From positions 1 to 40,586 of the forward strand of contig JAPLBL010000070.1 of the NCBI GenBank assembly GCA_026392765.1: 40,586 nt of DNA, read 5' to 3'. Below are positions 6,153 through 32,949 of this stretch, in pieces. The translations under genes were made by a program, and so were the position numbers. Below the pieces are notes generated by a model, which had not been told where the DNA came from, did not search any database, and saw only the letters and a list, made by a program, of their open reading frames with translations. This stretch comes from Actinomycetota bacterium. GTDB taxonomy: Bacteria > Actinomycetota > Actinomycetes > Nanopelagicales > Nanopelagicaceae. Every line of letters begins with the position of its first letter. Position 1 is the first letter of the stretch.

Positions 6153-7022
6153 TCAAGGACGAGTAGAGAACCCAGCTGCCATCTCAAGAACTACAAGAGC
6201 TGCCAATCGCACAGTGCGTTCATCTGCAGAATCCTTGGTTGCATCAATCTCAGTGATATCTGCACCAATCACAGAAGGTGATGAACCTGCAAGGAATGCG
6301 AATTGACGCAGTTCATCGGCGCTAATTCCACCAGGGGCTGCAGCAGGACAAGCTGGTACAACAGATCGATCACAGACATCCATATCAAAATCAACAAAGA
6401 CCTTATCGCCAGCAACCGATAACGCTATCGCCCAGATATCTTCAACACTTTTGCCTCGAAGCTCACTGCGAGGAATGACGGTGATACCGAAATCCTTTGC
6501 TCTCTTGGCATACTCAATCGAGTTGGAGAAATCAGCAATACCAATTTGGACAACCCTCTTACCGCTTAACCCTGCCTCAATGAGGCGTCGCACAGGTGAA
6601 CCATTGCTGACACCATCTCGTAAGTCGTAATGTGCATCCAAAGTAATTAATCCTGTTGCTTGCGTTGCCTGCACGCAGCTATAGGTAATCGAATTATCTC
6701 CACCCAGTGCAATAACCAGTGAGCTCTTGGCAGCTGTTGATTTCAACTCAGAGATAGCTGCAGCTTCATCACGATCGGGAGATGTGATATCTCCGGCGTC
6801 TTGCAGGGAAACTTTCTCAAGATTGACGCTGGGATCTGAGTGAGCGGTGGAGTAACGCTGTAACGCTTGCCGAATTGCATTGGGAGTCTGATGTGCTGAT
6901 GTCGGACTCAGGCTTGTTTGTGAGGCCGGAACTCCAACGACAGTCACATCTGCTTGATTTTCTGACTGCTGTGAAAAAAGAGATGCTGCCCGTGGCCAGA
7001 GAGGATCGTGAGGCAATGCCAT
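6153..7022 (-). CDS. hutG: Formimidoylglutamase-like ureohydrolase (arginase/agmatinase family)
   Basis: DAHYD and DFDMDVCD metal motifs; adjacent and divergent to hutUIH. Start assigned to MALPHDP at 7022. Confidence 0.8.
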
Positions 7023-7028
7023 GGTGAA

Positions 7029-7034
7029 AGGGTA
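7029..7034 (-). promoter_or_regulatory. Putative -10 element TACCCT, 6 nt before hutG ATG
   Basis: Minus strand TACCCT-ttcacc-ATG(7022). Confidence 0.45.
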
Positions 7035-7058
7035 GTGGAAACGGCAATGATGCAGATA

Positions 7059-7064
7059 TATAGT
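7059..7064 (+). promoter_or_regulatory. Putative -10 element TATAGT, 6 nt before hutU ATG (leaderless)
   Basis: TATAGT-gctcaa-ATG(7071); no SD. Confidence 0.55.
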
Positions 7065-7070
7065 GCTCAA

Positions 7071-8741
7071 ATGATGTCAGGACCTCGTCCAGTAAGAGCG
7101 CCTCGCGGAACAACAAAGACCGCACACGGTTGGGGTCAAGAGGCAGCCCTTCGCATGTTGCAGAACAACCTCGATCCTGAAGTTGCTGAACATCCCGACA
7201 AATTAGTTGTTTACGGTGGAACAGGTAAAGCTGCTCGAAATTGGGATTCCTTCGATGCTCTTATTAAGACTCTGACCAATCTAAAAGATGATGAAACGAT
7301 GTTGGTGCAATCTGGAAAACCCGTTGGCGTATTTCAAACCCATGAATGGGCACCTCGCGTACTCCTCGCCAATTCAAATCTTGTAGGAGATTGGGCGACC
7401 TGGCCAGACTTTCGAAGACTCGAAGATTTAGGTTTAACGATGTATGGCCAGATGACTGCAGGGTCATGGATCTATATCGGAACTCAAGGAATTTTGCAGG
7501 GCACCTATGAAACTTTTGCAGCAGTTGCTGAAAAGCACTTTGGTGGGACGCTCGCTGGAACGCTGACAGTCACGGGTGGATGCGGTGGTATGGGTGGGGC
7601 TCAACCACTTGCTATCACCATGAATGAAGGAACATGTCTGATCATCGATGTCGATGGTTCACGCCTCAAGCGCCGAGTCACCAAGAGATATCTCGATGTC
7701 ATTGCAGATAATTTGGAAGATGCTGTTGCAATGGCTGTGAAGGCAAAGAATGAGAAGAAGGCAATCTCCATCGGTCTTGTGGGAAATAGTGCAACCATCC
7801 TCCCCCAACTCTTTGCCATGGGAGTGCCGATAGATATCGTCACCGACCAAACATCAGCTCACGATCCACTTTTCTATATTCCTGAAGGTATTGATATCAA
7901 TGATGCGCGCGATAGCGCAGATCGCAATCCCGTCGACTTCTCCAAGCGCGCAAAGGAATCAATGGCAAAGCACGTTGAAGCAATGGTCAACTTCCAAGAT
8001 AAGGGCGCAGTGGTCTTTGACTATGGAAACTCCATTCGCGATGAGGCACGCCAAGGTGGTTACACCAGAGCATTTGAATTCCCTGGCTTTATTCCAGCCT
8101 ATATACGACCACTGTTCTGTGAAGGAAAGGGACCATTTCGTTGGGTCGCACTGTCGGGAGATCCGAAAGATATTGCACGTACCGATCAAGCAGTTCTCGA
8201 ACTTTTCCCTGAAAACAAGCATCTACATCGCTGGATCAAGATGGCGCAAGATCGCGTCGAATTTGAAGGGCTACCTGCACGCATCTGTTGGCTCGGCTAT
8301 GGAGAACGCGATAAGGCTGGATTGAAATTTAATGACCTTGTCGCAAGTGGAGAAGTGAGTGCTCCGATTGTTATTGGGCGCGATCACTTAGATTGCGGCA
8401 GCGTTGCATCCCCTTATCGTGAATCTGAAGCAATGCTTGATGGCTCAGATGCGATCGCTGACTGGCCACTACTGAATGCAATGATCAATATTTCATCAGG
8501 TGCATCATGGGTCTCGATTCACCATGGTGGCGGCGTTGGTATTGGTCGCTCTATCCACGCAGGACAAGTCAGCGTTGCAGATGGAACACCACTTGCTGCG
8601 CAGAAGTTAGAGCGAGTGCTCACCAACGATCCTGGTATGGGCGTCATTCGCCATGCAGATGCAGGCTATGAACACGCAAAGGAAGTTGCCATTGAAAAGG
8701 GTGTTCACGTGCCCATGATGAATGGTGCACCTATCAAGTGA
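7071..8741 (+). CDS. hutU: Urocanate hydratase
   Basis: Urocanase signatures ([47 protein letters not shown]). Start assigned to [13 protein letters not shown] at 7071 rather than 7008. Confidence 0.95.
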
Positions 8742-9910
8742 GCTCCATAGCATTTACCAACATTGCAACTCTTGTTACAAATGATGTATCAGCAGGAGAA
8801 GGCGCCATAGGAGTTCTACATAACGCAACTGTTGTGGTGGAAGATGGGCTGATTTCCCAGATTTCACAGACTCGTCCAACTGGTGTCGATAGCGAAGTTG
8901 ATTGCTCGGGCAAGACACTTCTTCCAGGATTTGTGGATTCACACTCTCACCTAATCTTTGCTGGAGATCGAGCAGATGAGTTTGCAGCGCGTTCACAAGG
9001 TGGGAAATACACCGCAGGTGGAATCGCATCGACTGTGAAGGCAACGAGAGTGGCATCAGATGCTGATCTTCGCCAGAATGCACAGCGTCTTCTCAACGAA
9101 GCACTTGCAACGGGCACCACAACGATGGAAATCAAATCTGGATATGGCCTCACTGAAAAGGATGAGCTTCGCAGTCTTGCTATTGCAAATGAATTCACCG
9201 ATGAGACAACTATCCTTGCAGCTCATGTGATTCCTGAAGAGTTTGAATCGAATCCGGATGGCTATGTGGAGCTCATCATCAATTCAATCATTCCGAAATC
9301 CAAGGCGAAATGGATCGATGCATTTTGTGATCTCGGTGCCTTTAACCCAGAGCAATCTGAGGCAATACTGCGCGCAGGAGTAGCTGCCGGCATGCAGGTG
9401 CGCATCCACGCCAATCAACTCTCTGCAGGAGGTGGTGTTGCACTCGCCGTAGCACTCGATGCAGCATCGGCAGATCACGTGAGCAAATCAACGAATGCAG
9501 ATATTGAGTTGTTGGCATCAAGTAATACCGTTGCAACACTCCTGCCGGGCGCTGAATTCTCCACACATCTGCAATCAGGACTTGGTCGACGTTTTCTTGA
9601 TGCAGGTGCAACAGTTGCCATTGCATCTGATTGCAATCCTGGCTCTAGCTACACCACATCGATGCCATTTTGTATTGCAACAGCGGTAAGCCTCTTGGGA
9701 TTTACGGTGGAGGAAGCAGTTAAGGCTGCAACACTTGGCGGAGCACAGGCTCTTCGAAGAACTGATATCGGAATAGTGAGTGTTGGTAAGAGAGCAGATC
9801 TCGTTCTACTTAACGCACCTTCTTACATACACCTGGCATATCGCCCCGGCGTCAATCTCGTCCACAGCACCTACAAATCAGGAAGAGCAGTGACATCATG
9901 GCAGAAGTAG
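8738..9910 (+). CDS. hutI: Imidazolonepropionase
   Basis: Amidohydrolase motifs [38 protein letters not shown] start overlaps hutU stop. Confidence 0.93.
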
Positions 9911-11415
9911 TAATCACGACATCAGGCATGACTTTTAGTGATCTCGTGACAATTGCACGAAATGGCGCCACTGTCTCACTCTCACAAGAATCACTGAGTG
10001 CCATGCAAAGCTCGCGTGATCACGTTGAAAAGCTTGCAGCATCTGAAACTCCTGTCTATGGAATTTCAACCGGCTTTGGAGCCCTAGCAAATCGCCATGT
10101 GTCGCAAGAGCTTCGCACACAACTACAACGTTCCTTGATTCGCTCGCATGCAGCGGGTGTTGGAGATCCCGTAGAGAGAGAAGTTGTGCGAGCACTGATG
10201 GCTCTTCGATTGAAAACTCTCGCTTCAGGAAAGACAGGGGTGCGACCCGTAGTTGCCGAGACAATGGCTGCTCTTTTAAACGCTGGCATCACTCCCCTTG
10301 TTCGCGAATTTGGGTCCCTTGGTTGCAGCGGAGATTTAGCGCCTCTTGCTCACTGCGCACTCGTTCTTATGGGCGAAGGAGAAGCCTTTGATAACAATGG
10401 TGTGCAACGACCAGTGGCTGATCTTCTTCGCGAAGCAAAAATCACTCCTGTGCAACTTGCCGAAAAAGAGGGTCTTGCTCTCATCAATGGCACAGATGGC
10501 ATGCTCGGAATGCTCATCCTTGCTATCGAAGATTTACGAATGCTTGTTAATACTGCAGATGTCGTTGCAGCGATGAGCGTTGAAGGTTTGCTTGGAACAG
10601 ATCGCGTCTTCATTCCAGAGCTTCACCTTCCTCTGCGTTCTCACCCAGGACAGGCAGAGAGCGCTGCACGCATGCTTGCAACACTCAAAGGCTCAGGCAT
10701 AGTCGCATCACACCTAGAAAATGATGATCGCGTGCAGGATGCGTACTCACTTCGCTGTGCTCCTCAAGTTGCCGGCGCTGTTCGTGACACAGTCGAATAT
10801 GCAGCAACTGTTGCGCTACGAGAGCTAGCTGCTGTCATTGATAATCCAGTAGTTTTAGATGATGGTCGCATTTCATCCAATGGTAATTTCCATGGAGCAC
10901 CTATCGCCTATGTTCTGGACTTCCTTGCTATTGCTGTCGCAGATTTAGGAAGCATCGCAGAGCGACGCACAGATCGTGCACTCGATAAGAATCGCAGCGC
11001 AGGATTACCACCATTTCTGGCCGATGATCCTGGAGTTGATTCAGGTCTGATGATTGCCCAATACACACAAGCCGCCCTTGTCAGCGAGAACAAGAGACTT
11101 GCATCTCCTGCAAGTGTCGATTCCATTCCTTCTTCTGCGATGCAAGAAGATCACGTATCCATGGGATGGTCTGCTGCGCGAAAACTACGGACATCAATTA
11201 CAAACCTAACGCGAATCATCGCCATAGAACTAGTGACAGCTTCTCGTGCGATTGAGCTGCGCGCTCCCTTAACCCCAAGCCCAGATTCAACCAAGGTCAT
11301 TACAGCGCTGCGTAAAAGCGTTGCAGGCCCTGGGCCTGATCGATATCTATCGCCTGAATTGGAAGCTGCAACAGCATTTGTCGCAACAGGTCGCGTTATG
11401 AATGCGATTGAATAA
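9898..11415 (+). CDS. hutH: Histidine ammonia-lyase
   Basis: MIO-forming segment GSLGCSGDLAPLAHCALVLMGEG; YGISTGFG; start overlaps hutI by 13 bp. Confidence 0.95.
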   Translation: MAEVVITTSGMTFSDLVTIARNGATVSLSQESLSAMQSSRDHVEKLAASETPVYGISTGFGALANRHVSQELRTQLQRSLIRSHAAGVGDPVEREVVRALMALRLKTLASGKTGVRPVVAETMAALLNAGITPLVREFGSLGCSGDLAPLAHCALVLMGEGEAFDNNGVQRPVADLLREAKITPVQLAEKEGLALINGTDGMLGMLILAIEDLRMLVNTADVVAAMSVEGLLGTDRVFIPELHLPLRSHPGQAESAARMLATLKGSGIVASHLENDDRVQDAYSLRCAPQVAGAVRDTVEYAATVALRELAAVIDNPVVLDDGRISSNGNFHGAPIAYVLDFLAIAVADLGSIAERRTDRALDKNRSAGLPPFLADDPGVDSGLMIAQYTQAALVSENKRLASPASVDSIPSSAMQEDHVSMGWSAARKLRTSITNLTRIIAIELVTASRAIELRAPLTPSPDSTKVITALRKSVAGPGPDRYLSPELEAATAFVATGRVMNAIE

Positions 11416-29034: not shown

Positions 29035-29150
29035 CTTCATAGGTATCTCAGTAGGGGAAGTTCGGTGCAATTCCGACGCTGACCCGCAACCGTAAGAGAG
29101 TTCATCCCTGAACTGCTTAAGTCGGATTACCTGCCGAGATATTTGTTTTT
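29035..29150 (+). promoter_or_regulatory. Cobalamin (adenosylcobalamin-type) riboswitch
   Basis: Core CGGTGCAATTCCGACGCTGACCCGCAACCGTAAG at 29063-29096; B12 box AAGTCGGATTACCTGCC at 29119-29135; closing stem TATCTC (29044-29049) with GAGATA (29136-29141); upstream of an ECF operon. Confidence 0.95.
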
Positions 29151-29259
29151 GACCAACACCCGCCGAGGTCTGCGGGGTGTAGTCCAAAGGTATTTGGCGT
29201 ATTTGGCCGACCGCTAGCGAGCTACCCCTGTGAGACTCTTCTTTTAAGGAGTTCACACT

Positions 29260-29799
29260 GTGAAAGCAATACATTTCAACAAGATCGCACTTGCGATTCT
29301 TCTCATTACATCTCAAGTTATCTCAATACCTGCATCCCATGCAGAATCAAAGGGCTGGCGTTATTGGGGTTACTTCCAAGCAGCCCCTGGAGCATCAACT
29401 TGGAAAGCTGCCATGACTGGACCGACTGTCGATATTGAAGATGGGGCCGTTGAAGGATGGTCATTTGTCTTTAGTAGCGATGATGTTCCATCCGTAGCAC
29501 CCAAGACAAAACCTTCCTTTGCATCCATCTGTGGAAAGACAAAGGCAGATTCAGATACCAAGCGCATTGGTCTTGTCATCGAATTTGGTAACTCTGCCTA
29601 CGCACCAAAGGGTGAAAAGGTGCAGAAGCCAATAGTGCGTTGTGTGACGACAGCAAAGAGTTCACAAGGTATCGATGTACTTGGCCAAGTCGTTAAAGTC
29701 CGCTCTGCCAGTTCAGGTTTGATCTGCGGATTCAACGGCTTCCCTAAGAAGGAATGCGGAGTAGAGATAAATACTCCTGCTGCGCTAATCAAGAAGTAG
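29260..29799 (+). CDS. Secreted SCO2322-family-like protein
   Basis: GTG start with AAGGAG SD; Sec signal MKAIHFNKIALAILLITSQVISIPASHA; GWRYWGYFQ...W.AAMTGP, PSFASICG, GFPKKECG motifs; four Cys in the mature part. Confidence 0.75.
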   Translation: MKAIHFNKIALAILLITSQVISIPASHAESKGWRYWGYFQAAPGASTWKAAMTGPTVDIEDGAVEGWSFVFSSDDVPSVAPKTKPSFASICGKTKADSDTKRIGLVIEFGNSAYAPKGEKVQKPIVRCVTTAKSSQGIDVLGQVVKVRSASSGLICGFNGFPKKECGVEINTPAALIKK

Positions 29800-29813
29800 T
29801 AAAGAAGCTCGTC

Positions 29814-30557
29814 ATGAAGAAGCCACTGCATCCACTCACACTATGGATCAGTGCAATACTCCTTGCAATAGGTGTTGTTGCACTCGAAAACGTATGGATC
29901 GCACTCGCGATCGTGGGTGCAGTGGCTTTTCTTGTCTATGTGCGTCGCGATGGTTCACCTTGGGAGAGAAGTTTCATTCTCTCGCTTCGGATTTGCGCCA
30001 TCATTCTGGCTATTCGCACGATTGTTGGAATTCTGATTGGTGTCCCTATTCCTGGAACCATCCTCTTTAGATTACCCATCCTTGATCTACCTTCATGGAT
30101 GCCCGGTATTCGAATAGGTGGAGCCGTAACCCTCGAGAGATTATCTTCATCTCTTCACGAAGGTGTCATCATCGCAACGATGATTGCTCTCTTTGGAGCT
30201 GCGACATCTCTGACAAGCCCACATAAATTATTGCGTGTCACTCCCTCCTTTATCTATGAAATAGGAATCACGCTAGTGATTGCCACATCGCTCTTCCCAC
30301 AACTTGCCACCAGTGCACGTCGAATTCACACAGCACAGAAGTTGCGTGGAATGGAAAACGTTCATATCCGCTCCATTGCAATCCCATTACTTGAAGAATC
30401 ACTCTCACGGTCATTGCAACTTGCTGCTGCAATGGATGCACGAGGTTATGGAATAAGCCGTAAGCGCTCTCGATATCGCCCTATGCAATGGTTGATGCGC
30501 GATAACGTCATTGTTGTGCTAACTGTTGCCGCATCAGCTGTGATGGTGGCGCGATGA
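29814..30557 (+). CDS. ECF transporter T component (CbiQ family)
   Basis: Multiple TM segments and coupling motif LQLAAAMDARGYG. Start at MKKPLHP, 29814. Confidence 0.88.
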   Translation: MKKPLHPLTLWISAILLAIGVVALENVWIALAIVGAVAFLVYVRRDGSPWERSFILSLRICAIILAIRTIVGILIGVPIPGTILFRLPILDLPSWMPGIRIGGAVTLERLSSSLHEGVIIATMIALFGAATSLTSPHKLLRVTPSFIYEIGITLVIATSLFPQLATSARRIHTAQKLRGMENVHIRSIAIPLLEESLSRSLQLAAAMDARGYGISRKRSRYRPMQWLMRDNVIVVLTVAASAVMVAR

Positions 30558-32158
30558 TTACCTTCTCCAATGTGTCATTGATTTATCCTCACTCCACCAA
30601 GACCATCCTTGAAGATCTCTCTTTTCAGATTCAAGAAGGCGAGATGGTCCTTGTCATGGGTGAGACTGGATCAGGCAAATCATCGCTGCTACGCCTGATA
30701 AATGGACTAGTCCCCCATCACACCGGTGGCATCTTGGCTGGTGATATCTCTGTTGATGGGATTTCAACCCGTAAAGTGAAGCCAGGTTCTCTTGCTCATT
30801 TGGTTGGCATCGTTGGCCAAAATCCTATCAATGGCTTTGTCACAGATATTGTTGAAGAAGAGCTCGCATTTAGCATGGAGGCTCTGAACTTCGCCCCCGA
30901 TGTTATGCGCAAGAGAGTGGAGGAAGTTCTCGATCTTCTCAGTTTGAGTTCTCTGCGCAATCGCTCCATTGCAACCCTCAGCGGTGGTGAACAGCAACGC
31001 GTAGCAATAGGTGCAGCCCTTGTGATGCAGCCCAAAGTTCTTGTTCTTGATGAACCCACAAGCGCACTTGACCCCATAGCAGCAGAGGAAGTTCTCTCAG
31101 TTCTACATCGCCTTGTTCACGACTTGAGCGTCACAGTCATCATTGCAGAGCACCGCTTGGAAAGAGTCATCCAATTTGTTGATCGAATTATCTATATTGA
31201 GGGAGATGGTGAGACATCGATTGGCTCCCCTGATGAAATTCTCAAAAATTCAGAGCTAGTCCCTCCTATTGTGAAACTGGCTCGTGCCCTGAACTTGAGC
31301 GAGATTGGCACAAGCGTTCGTGAAGTAAGGCGAGCTACCGATGAGATTCGAAGTCGCCAATATCGTCTTTCAGATGTTGCACAGAGAGCAGATTCGCCCG
31401 CAATAGAAGTATCTGATGTTTCGCATTCTTATGGTGAGAAGCTCGCACTCAACACAATCACCACCACTATCCATCACGGTGAAATCGTTGCCATCATGGG
31501 GCGCAACGGTGCTGGCAAAAGCACTCTGTTGCACTCCATTGTTGGTTTGCACGCACCTGAAAAAGGAAGAATCTCTATTAACGGCCAAGATCCCACAGAG
31601 CTCACTGGTGCAGCGCGCAGACAAGCGATTGGGTATGTCCCTCAAGAACCTAGCGATCTTCTCTTTGCATCCAGCGTTGAAGAAGAATGTGCTCATGCAG
31701 ATCGTGACAATGAGTTAGTACAGGGATCGACGGCAGCACTTCTCAATCGACTCGTCCCAGGAATCACCACCCAAGCCCATCCCAATGATCTATCTGAAGG
31801 ACAACGTTTGGCACTGGTTCTGAGCATTGTTCTTGCAGCAAACCCTGATGTTTTGGTTCTTGATGAACCCACTCGTGGACTTGATTACCGGGCCAAGGGG
31901 CTCTTTGGTGTGGCTCTCAAAGAGTATGCAACGCAATTTAATAGGCCAGTGCTGCTTGCAACCCACGATGTGGAGCTTGTCGCAGAACTTGCAGATCGAG
32001 TTCTCTTTCTCGCAGAAGGTGACATCATCGCAGATGGCACAACACTGGAAGTTCTTCTCTCATCTCCTGCCTTCGCACCACAAGTAGCAAAGATTATGTC
32101 GCCTAAGCCATGGCTCACTGTCAGCGATGTTGTTCAAGCTTTGGGAGATGTTTCATGA
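30554..32158 (+). CDS. Fused ECF ATPase (A-A' components), two ABC domains
   Basis: Two Walker A (GETGSGKSSLL; GRNGAGKSTLL), two signatures (LSGGEQQ; LSEGQR), two Walker B (VLVLDEPTSALD; VLVLDEPTRGLD). Confidence 0.93.
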   Translation: MITFSNVSLIYPHSTKTILEDLSFQIQEGEMVLVMGETGSGKSSLLRLINGLVPHHTGGILAGDISVDGISTRKVKPGSLAHLVGIVGQNPINGFVTDIVEEELAFSMEALNFAPDVMRKRVEEVLDLLSLSSLRNRSIATLSGGEQQRVAIGAALVMQPKVLVLDEPTSALDPIAAEEVLSVLHRLVHDLSVTVIIAEHRLERVIQFVDRIIYIEGDGETSIGSPDEILKNSELVPPIVKLARALNLSEIGTSVREVRRATDEIRSRQYRLSDVAQRADSPAIEVSDVSHSYGEKLALNTITTTIHHGEIVAIMGRNGAGKSTLLHSIVGLHAPEKGRISINGQDPTELTGAARRQAIGYVPQEPSDLLFASSVEEECAHADRDNELVQGSTAALLNRLVPGITTQAHPNDLSEGQRLALVLSIVLAANPDVLVLDEPTRGLDYRAKGLFGVALKEYATQFNRPVLLATHDVELVAELADRVLFLAEGDIIADGTTLEVLLSSPAFAPQVAKIMSPKPWLTVSDVVQALGDVS

Positions 32159-32949
32159 AGACTGCCGGAATTTTCTCCTTTAAGGGTGCCTCACTCATCG
32201 CACTACTCGCAACAAGTGCAATCAGTGCGCTCGGCTTTCTCTGGCCATTTCTCATCAGTGAGAAACAAGGCCACCCTCAGTGGATCTTCTTGCTAGCAAC
32301 TCCCTGCGCACTCTTGCTTCTGATGATCAGCGTGAGTAATAAGGATCTCGATAGCAAGTCCATCGCTCTTCTTGCAGTGCTCTCTGCGCTCATTGCGGCG
32401 CTGCGCCCTATGGGAACAGGTGCTGTGGGGATTGAACCGATGTGGTTTGTACTTATTTTGGCTGCACGAGTATTTGGCCCATCCTTTGGTTTTCTTCTAG
32501 GAATTATCTCAATGTTTCTCTCTGCAATTCTCACAGGAGGGCTCGGTCCATGGGTTGCATATCAATCATTTGCTGCCGGGTGGATCGGACTTGGAGTCGC
32601 ACTGATTCCAAGAGGGTTGCGAGGCAAAACAGAAATTTTCGCACTCGCGCTCTATGGAGTAGCTGCAGCTGGATTCTTTGGTATCGCCATGGATCTTCAA
32701 TTTTGGCCATGGACACTCGGTTCAGATACTCAACTCTCCTACGTTGCAGGAGCTGCTCTCTCAACGAATTTCTCACACTTTATTTCATACCATTTTCTCT
32801 CAGCTATGGCCTGGGATATTCCGCGAGCAATCTTTACAGCCTCATTAATTGTGATGACTGCTAAGCCAGTTCTTCACACTTTGCGCAGAGCTCACACAAG
32901 AGCTGCCTTTATGACACCGATTGAATTTATCGAACGTGTGAGGGCATAA
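32155..32949 (+). CDS. ECF transporter substrate-specificity (S) component, probably corrinoid-specific
   Basis: Six or more TM helices, GGLGPWVAYQSFAAGWIGLG; last gene of riboswitch-led ECF operon. Start at MKTAGIF, 32155. Confidence 0.85.
   Translation: MKTAGIFSFKGASLIALLATSAISALGFLWPFLISEKQGHPQWIFLLATPCALLLLMISVSNKDLDSKSIALLAVLSALIAALRPMGTGAVGIEPMWFVLILAARVFGPSFGFLLGIISMFLSAILTGGLGPWVAYQSFAAGWIGLGVALIPRGLRGKTEIFALALYGVAAAGFFGIAMDLQFWPWTLGSDTQLSYVAGAALSTNFSHFISYHFLSAMAWDIPRAIFTASLIVMTAKPVLHTLRRAHTRAAFMTPIEFIERVRA

Follow-up and report, generated by a model that had tools for sequence, protein, structure and literature searches.

We analysed a 40,586-nucleotide stretch of DNA (hereafter the window) from an actinobacterium of the family Nanopelagicaceae (assembly GCA_026392765.1, contig JAPLBL010000070.1), in which an adenosylcobalamin (AdoCbl, B12) riboswitch precedes a gene for a secreted protein of the SCO2322 family and the genes of an energy-coupling factor (ECF) transporter, all on the + strand. 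The riboswitch aptamer (RF01482, 29029..29187) scored 54.7 bits with cmscan, above the gathering score of 50 (E 1.8e-7), and was both the sole Rfam match in the window and the sole RF01482 match in the window's genome (1.16 Mb, 82% complete). The SCO2322 gene (29260..29799) begins with a GTG start that has AAGGAG just 5' of it and encodes 179 amino acids (aa), with a signal peptide at residues 1-28 that ends between SHA and ES, mature cysteines at 91, 128, 156 and 166, and no C-terminal transmembrane (TM) helix. Its match to NF040672 (SCO2322_fam) reached 158.2 bits against a cut-off of 85, which places it in the family to which the first-pass annotation had assigned it, whereas a Pfam scan of the protein gave no match. 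Downstream lie a CbiQ-like T component (29814..30557, 247 aa; PF02361, 39 bits), a fused A-A' ATPase with two ATP-binding cassette (ABC) domains (30554..32158, 534 aa; TIGR04520, 321 bits) and an S component (32155..32949, 264 aa) with weak matches to ECF-type S families (PF07155, 33.9 bits; PF12822, 28.6 bits). With T, two ATPases and a dedicated S in one operon, the layout is that of a group I ECF transporter, and its order is conserved in relatives. The RF01482, NF040672 and ECF matches confirm the operon as first annotated, namely a B12 riboswitch followed by a Sec-secreted SCO2322-like protein, T, fused A-A' and S. The reported overlap of T, A and S also stands, each of the two pairs sharing 4 nucleotides (ATGA), but the riboswitch start moves to 29029, and T is clear of SCO2322, starting 14 nucleotides past its stop.

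The pairing of SCO2322 with this transporter extends well beyond the window. NF040672 was found in 162 of 395 genomes of the class, and the order SCO2322-T-AA'-S was intact and immediately adjoining in 53 of 61 SCO2322 loci sampled across it. For the converse test of linkage, 80 named GTDB contigs were examined with S as the query; query A1 was too divergent for the contig scan and S took its place, which kept the test free of bias towards SCO2322. Going upstream from S, all 59 loci whose upstream DNA extends for 3.8 kb or more have A, T and a SCO2322-type gene in the expected order, and so do 6 shorter ones (65 in total, from genomes other than the window's), while the 15 contigs without an upstream SCO2322 all end too soon. 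Every S-family locus with enough upstream DNA thus encodes a secreted partner. Within the 3 kb preceding SCO2322, 43 of 48 genomes had a same-strand cobalamin aptamer; of the 5 that missed it, 3 have a locus that begins at a contig end. Among Nanopelagicaceae, S was present in all 14 genomes with SCO2322 and in none of the 10 without it. The co-occurrence analysis proposed in the first-pass annotation therefore shows a near-invariant link of SCO2322 both to cobalamin riboswitches and to ECF transporters of this type; one of the outcomes named there as refuting a capture or docking role, a family mostly unlinked to B12 or ECF genes, did not occur. The suggestion of an unusual ECF architecture, in the sense of a one-off, is not supported, as SCO2322 regularly accompanies this S family throughout Actinomycetota.

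The S component has at least 582 relatives in GTDB contigs and, among the matches listed, the nearest named contigs are those of IMCC25003 and Ca. Planktophila, both Nanopelagicaceae; the window's genome is of the Ca. Planktophila type. PDB matches to the window S profile, up to an E value of 10, included no S component and hence no solved cobalamin S, so that by sequence the family appears to have no solved relative. The 3' end of the S gene shares 23 nucleotides (window 32927-32949) with that of a convergent GcvT-like gene.

The protein encoded upstream at 17 S-family loci scored poorly with the SCO2322 profile, and its relationship to SCO2322 became apparent only in halves (the opposite-order group). 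The N-terminal half of SCO2322 (in the window 29362..29475 on the + strand, YWGYF...W...DGAVEGWSF) matched the C-terminal part of the opposite-order proteins in 17 of 17 cases, with 30-46 bits, and the C-terminal half (29551..29769, + strand, KRIGLVIEFG...C...LICGFNGFPKKEC) matched the segment just before that, in their N-terminal part, in 16 of 17, with 27.8 bits at best and weakly in most. When the SCO2322 halves were swapped in silico, the hhalign alignment with the opposite-order group grew from 47 to 115 columns and its E value fell from 3.5e-15 to 4.1e-23, the best cut lying at mature residues 55-70, in a linker between predicted strands. The swapped alignment scored 136, compared to at most 18.4 for a column-shuffled null. 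Through the swap the last three of the four cysteines align, and the first one directly precedes the opening strand of either form. On a tree of T and S, the opposite order required 2 changes versus 15.3 with shuffled labels, and 10 of the 17 opposite-order loci carry a cobalamin riboswitch above the gathering score.

The opposite-order orthologues provide the connection to animal B12 carriers. They are colinear with the strand order of the transcobalamin clade (beta1-beta2-alpha-beta3-hairpin-beta5). SCO2322, with beta4-beta5-beta1-beta2-alpha-beta3, is not: its N-terminal half corresponds to transcobalamin strands beta4-beta5 with their hairpin, and its C-terminal half to strands beta1-beta2, the helix and beta3. 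A Foldseek search of 350,542 PDB chains with the model of the orthologue at locus L169 (Saccharothrix; predicted local distance difference test score, pLDDT, 88.5) returned transcobalamin or haptocorrin at ranks 1-10 and 12, including the human transcobalamin beta domain with cyanocobalamin (5np4; probability 0.94, TM-scores 0.53/0.61). The Ruminococcus protein 3u7z, which we take to be of the DUF4430 type and which carries the PDB title of a putative metal-binding protein, was also among the matches. The evidence for the transcobalamin beta fold is thus direct for the opposite-order orthologue and indirect for SCO2322, coming from the permuted profile alignment and the strand order. From these alignments and models we conclude that SCO2322 is a circularly permuted beta-grasp domain of the transcobalamin beta type.

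Our combined findings suggest that the window holds an AdoCbl-repressed corrinoid import operon of a B12-auxotrophic freshwater actinobacterium, in which SCO2322, as a permuted transcobalamin domain, most likely captures the corrinoid and passes it to S. We assign this reading a probability of about two in three. Corrinoid capture had been proposed in the first-pass annotation and is still the best reading, now on the basis of a fold relationship to the transcobalamin beta domain that was unsuspected at the time. Low AdoCbl would relieve repression by the riboswitch, and T, A-A' and S would assemble as a group I ECF importer. Exported SCO2322 would then catch the corrinoid outside the membrane, S would take it from SCO2322, with docking and the direction of hand-over being our inference, and the T/AA' module would power toppling and release. 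In most other actinobacteria SCO2322 carries a C-terminal TM helix as a tether, and many encode it together with another secreted protein, an alpha/alpha toroid resembling the alpha domain of transcobalamin. A more far-reaching reading, to which we give slightly less than even odds, is that the permuted domain is an obligate subunit that docks on S as well as binding corrinoid; such ECF importers would form a class of their own, marked by an extracellular substrate receptor dedicated to the transporter.

Several observations weigh against corrinoid capture by a transcobalamin-type domain. ECF-CbrT takes up cobalamin without any binding protein (PMC5997447), and ECF genes are missing next to 7 of the 61 SCO2322 loci. 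The AlphaFold2 model of the window SCO2322 (pLDDT 92.6) found no match in the PDB by Foldseek (best E 0.88), which is what a sequential aligner should give for a permutant but is by itself no proof. A novel fold, which this empty search had suggested, was dropped on the evidence of the opposite-order orthologues. For L169, the E values of the transcobalamin and haptocorrin matches at ranks 1-10 ranged from 0.05 to 0.7, with none below 0.001; despite these modest values, the consistency of the ranks obtained with the model is not a matter of chance. The opposite-order profile also aligned weakly with animal transcobalamin beta (hhalign probability 4%, E 0.0095), in the right register and with a score that 0 of 100 column-shuffled profiles reached. 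The transcobalamin and intrinsic factor sequences used as queries matched their own PDB entries over their whole length with zero mismatches. An hmmsearch of PDB sequences with the opposite-order profile gave essentially immunoglobulin chance matches. Finally, PF14478 was matched neither by SCO2322, native or swapped, nor by the opposite-order forms, and it hit 0 of 12 genomes searched. The statement that SCO2322 is PF14478 therefore fails, on the hidden Markov model (HMM) as well as on strand order, whereas the statement that its fold is a permuted version of that one stands.

Many lineages, Streptomyces among them, encode a secreted alpha/alpha toroid (matched by Prenyltrans/SQHop_cyclase models) directly upstream of SCO2322. 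Among the 56 S-family loci for which 5.5 kb or more of upstream DNA was available, 29 had a separate toroid gene upstream. It is the counterpart of the transcobalamin alpha domain, with the same fold. Its profile matches the toroids of squalene-hopene cyclase and farnesyltransferase and not transcobalamin alpha specifically, so that the label "transcobalamin alpha" reflects fold class and partnership rather than closest sequence. Between these two groups of loci the toroid, like its partner, shows a circular permutation, with canonical residues 91-301 corresponding to 242-446 of the other form and 308-462 to 129-286 (for example, L173 versus L169). No toroid gene was found in the window's genome, and only 4 of 61 Nanopelagicaceae genomes were positive, all but one genus being without it. 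Whole-genome searches of 16 genomes with SCO2322 found none in 14, the two finds being the positive controls. Of the two partners, SCO2322 is therefore invariant and the toroid optional. Among the SCO2322 homologues without adjacent ECF genes (L060, L069, L074, L079, L087, L088 and L089), those of L060 and L074 keep the toroid, L060 the riboswitch too, and those of L069 and L087 have two cysteines only.

The toroid forms a main part of the B12 site of animal transcobalamin (PMC1796856). Its absence from so many genomes in which the linkage of SCO2322 to S is nonetheless invariant would fit a non-binding structural subunit that caps or docks on S (or T), for example in gating or stabilising, and that has lost the ancestral transcobalamin-like ligand site. 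However, the structure of the isolated human beta domain with cyanocobalamin (5np4) indicates that a beta domain alone can bind, and the toroid and beta pair of many lineages amounts to both halves of a B12 carrier. We consider such a loss of binding unlikely and favor corrinoid capture by SCO2322.

How SCO2322 is kept at the cell surface differs among lineages. Among 60 SCO2322 proteins, a C-terminal TM helix was missing exclusively in members from Nanopelagicaceae, and sampled members outside that family were all TM-tethered. One of the proteins lacking the helix, that of L047, has a lipobox, and in the window's genus and its sister genus SCO2322 is anchorless with a cleavable signal peptide. 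Without an anchor, SCO2322 of the window lineage would be either released or held by a partner, for which S is the obvious candidate. Release would make it a soluble corrinoid scavenger, or corrinophore, that returns loaded rather than a bound subunit. The missing anchor and cleavable signal peptide are what this would entail, but a streamlined planktonic cell would be expected to lose a diffusible carrier, and both the tethering outside Nanopelagicaceae and the lipobox of L047 argue against it; we regard release as very unlikely. Anchor loss suggests instead that SCO2322 is held non-covalently, as it would also be if it were a structural subunit. With anchor and toroid both absent, a corrinoid-capturing SCO2322 in the window lineage is probably held by docking on S.

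The genomic surroundings of the riboswitch bear on the substrate. The cobalamin riboswitch is retained in all 10 Nanopelagicaceae relatives without SCO2322. In five of these (g4 and g6; loci L189, L190, L193, L194 and L195) it precedes BtuF-BtuC-BtuD, named by inspecting translations, at the same site as in the window, between an aldo-keto reductase (AKR) gene and GcvT/PepA; in G246 and G387, BtuFCD lies behind a riboswitch at another site. In genus g3 (loci L188, L191 and L192; complete genomes G228, G125 and G155), the syntenic riboswitch site encodes only a 56-aa single-TM protein and a transcobalamin-beta-like protein of 175 aa in the opposite order, which has an N-terminal TM helix and matched the opposite-order profile over its full length with 29.7-34.2 bits. 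Three alternative B12 cassettes occupy one locus within this one family. The window's genome has a MetH-size B12-binding frame, as do most relatives, including G125 and G155, though neither CbiQ nor BtuC was found in these two. No such frame was found in G228, where a second cobalamin riboswitch (L187, G228:C1:247000-255000) precedes NrdI/NrdE/NrdF-like genes for a B12-independent ribonucleotide reductase. CbiC was found in 0 of 22 Nanopelagicaceae genomes, with a positive Streptomyces control.

The replacement by BtuFCD, the MetH-size frame and the absence of CbiC make cobalamin or a corrinoid by far the best predicted substrate. The T component does belong to CbiQ, which is annotated as cobalt transport, and the title of 3u7z likewise points to metal, as might be expected if the operon imported cobalt or a non-corrinoid ligand and were merely regulated by B12 status. 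Yet the riboswitch site holds BtuFCD in relatives, downstream genes in other actinobacteria read by inspection as corrinoid salvage (cobU/cobT/cobS-like), and cobalt would be useless as a B12 precursor in Nanopelagicaceae, since without CbiC there is no corrin synthesis. We give another ligand hardly any credence and retain corrinoid import. Elsewhere in the window (7008-11415), HutU-, HutI- and HutH-like histidine utilisation genes, identified by inspection of translations, form a single strand-consistent block.

SCO2322 shares with the beta domains of transcobalamin, haptocorrin and intrinsic factor (SLBB superfamily, PF14478 DUF4430) the beta-grasp, a YW...W hairpin and a terminal "G..Y.P.DG..E" strand, as well as secretion, a B12 context and, in many SCO2322 operons, pairing with an alpha/alpha toroid. 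It differs in its swapped halves (beta4-beta5 first), two presumed disulfides and the lack of a PF14478 match, and its associated toroid is a separate gene that is absent in the window lineage. In low-GC Gram-positives, proteins of the transcobalamin SLBB clade, together with toroid proteins encoded with CbiO/CbiQ, were predicted to be B12 scavengers (Burroughs et al. 2007, PMC1796856). Those systems resemble ours in their extracellular SLBB domain, toroid, ECF-type ATPase and T genes and predicted role. The clade was described from low-GC Gram-positives, planctomycetes and some archaea (PMC1796856), whereas the actinobacterial SCO2322 branch is permuted. As judged from alignments and models, the SCO2322 system would be the Actinomycetota counterpart of these scavengers, invisible to HMMs through its permutation. 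A literature search found no paper naming SCO2322 or linking it to the transcobalamin clade.

The importer itself is not new, because ECF modules behind cobalamin riboswitches were reported as putative cobalamin transporters in complete acI genomes, together with a lack of B12 synthesis (Kang et al. 2017, PMC5301498). The secreted protein, which is not mentioned in that paper's passages on these modules, is the part that called for explanation. ECF-CbrT of Lactobacillus delbrueckii (Santos et al. 2018, PMC5997447) likewise takes up cobalamin through T, A, A' and S components of the ECF type, but it uses a group II shared module and has no extracellular partner. BtuFCD, a type II ABC importer, occupies the same riboswitch-controlled site in sister genera, but combines a classical binding protein with a permease, and its homology to SCO2322/ECF is limited to the ATPase fold.

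These findings offer a testable identity for a protein family whose NCBI name is functionally silent. The paired circular permutations of the beta-grasp and toroid genes constitute a rare natural case of two partner proteins being re-ordered. If SCO2322 binds corrinoid and docks on S, it would be a widespread exception to the textbook view that ECF importers need no extracytoplasmic binding protein and, were it an obligate subunit, animal-type B12 capture and ECF import would be one machine. In most freshwater lakes, acI bacteria are reported to outnumber every other group (PMC5301498). These freshwater actinobacteria probably catch B12 outside the cell before import, which would tie the way in which acI bacteria obtain B12 to the ancestry of the animal carriers.

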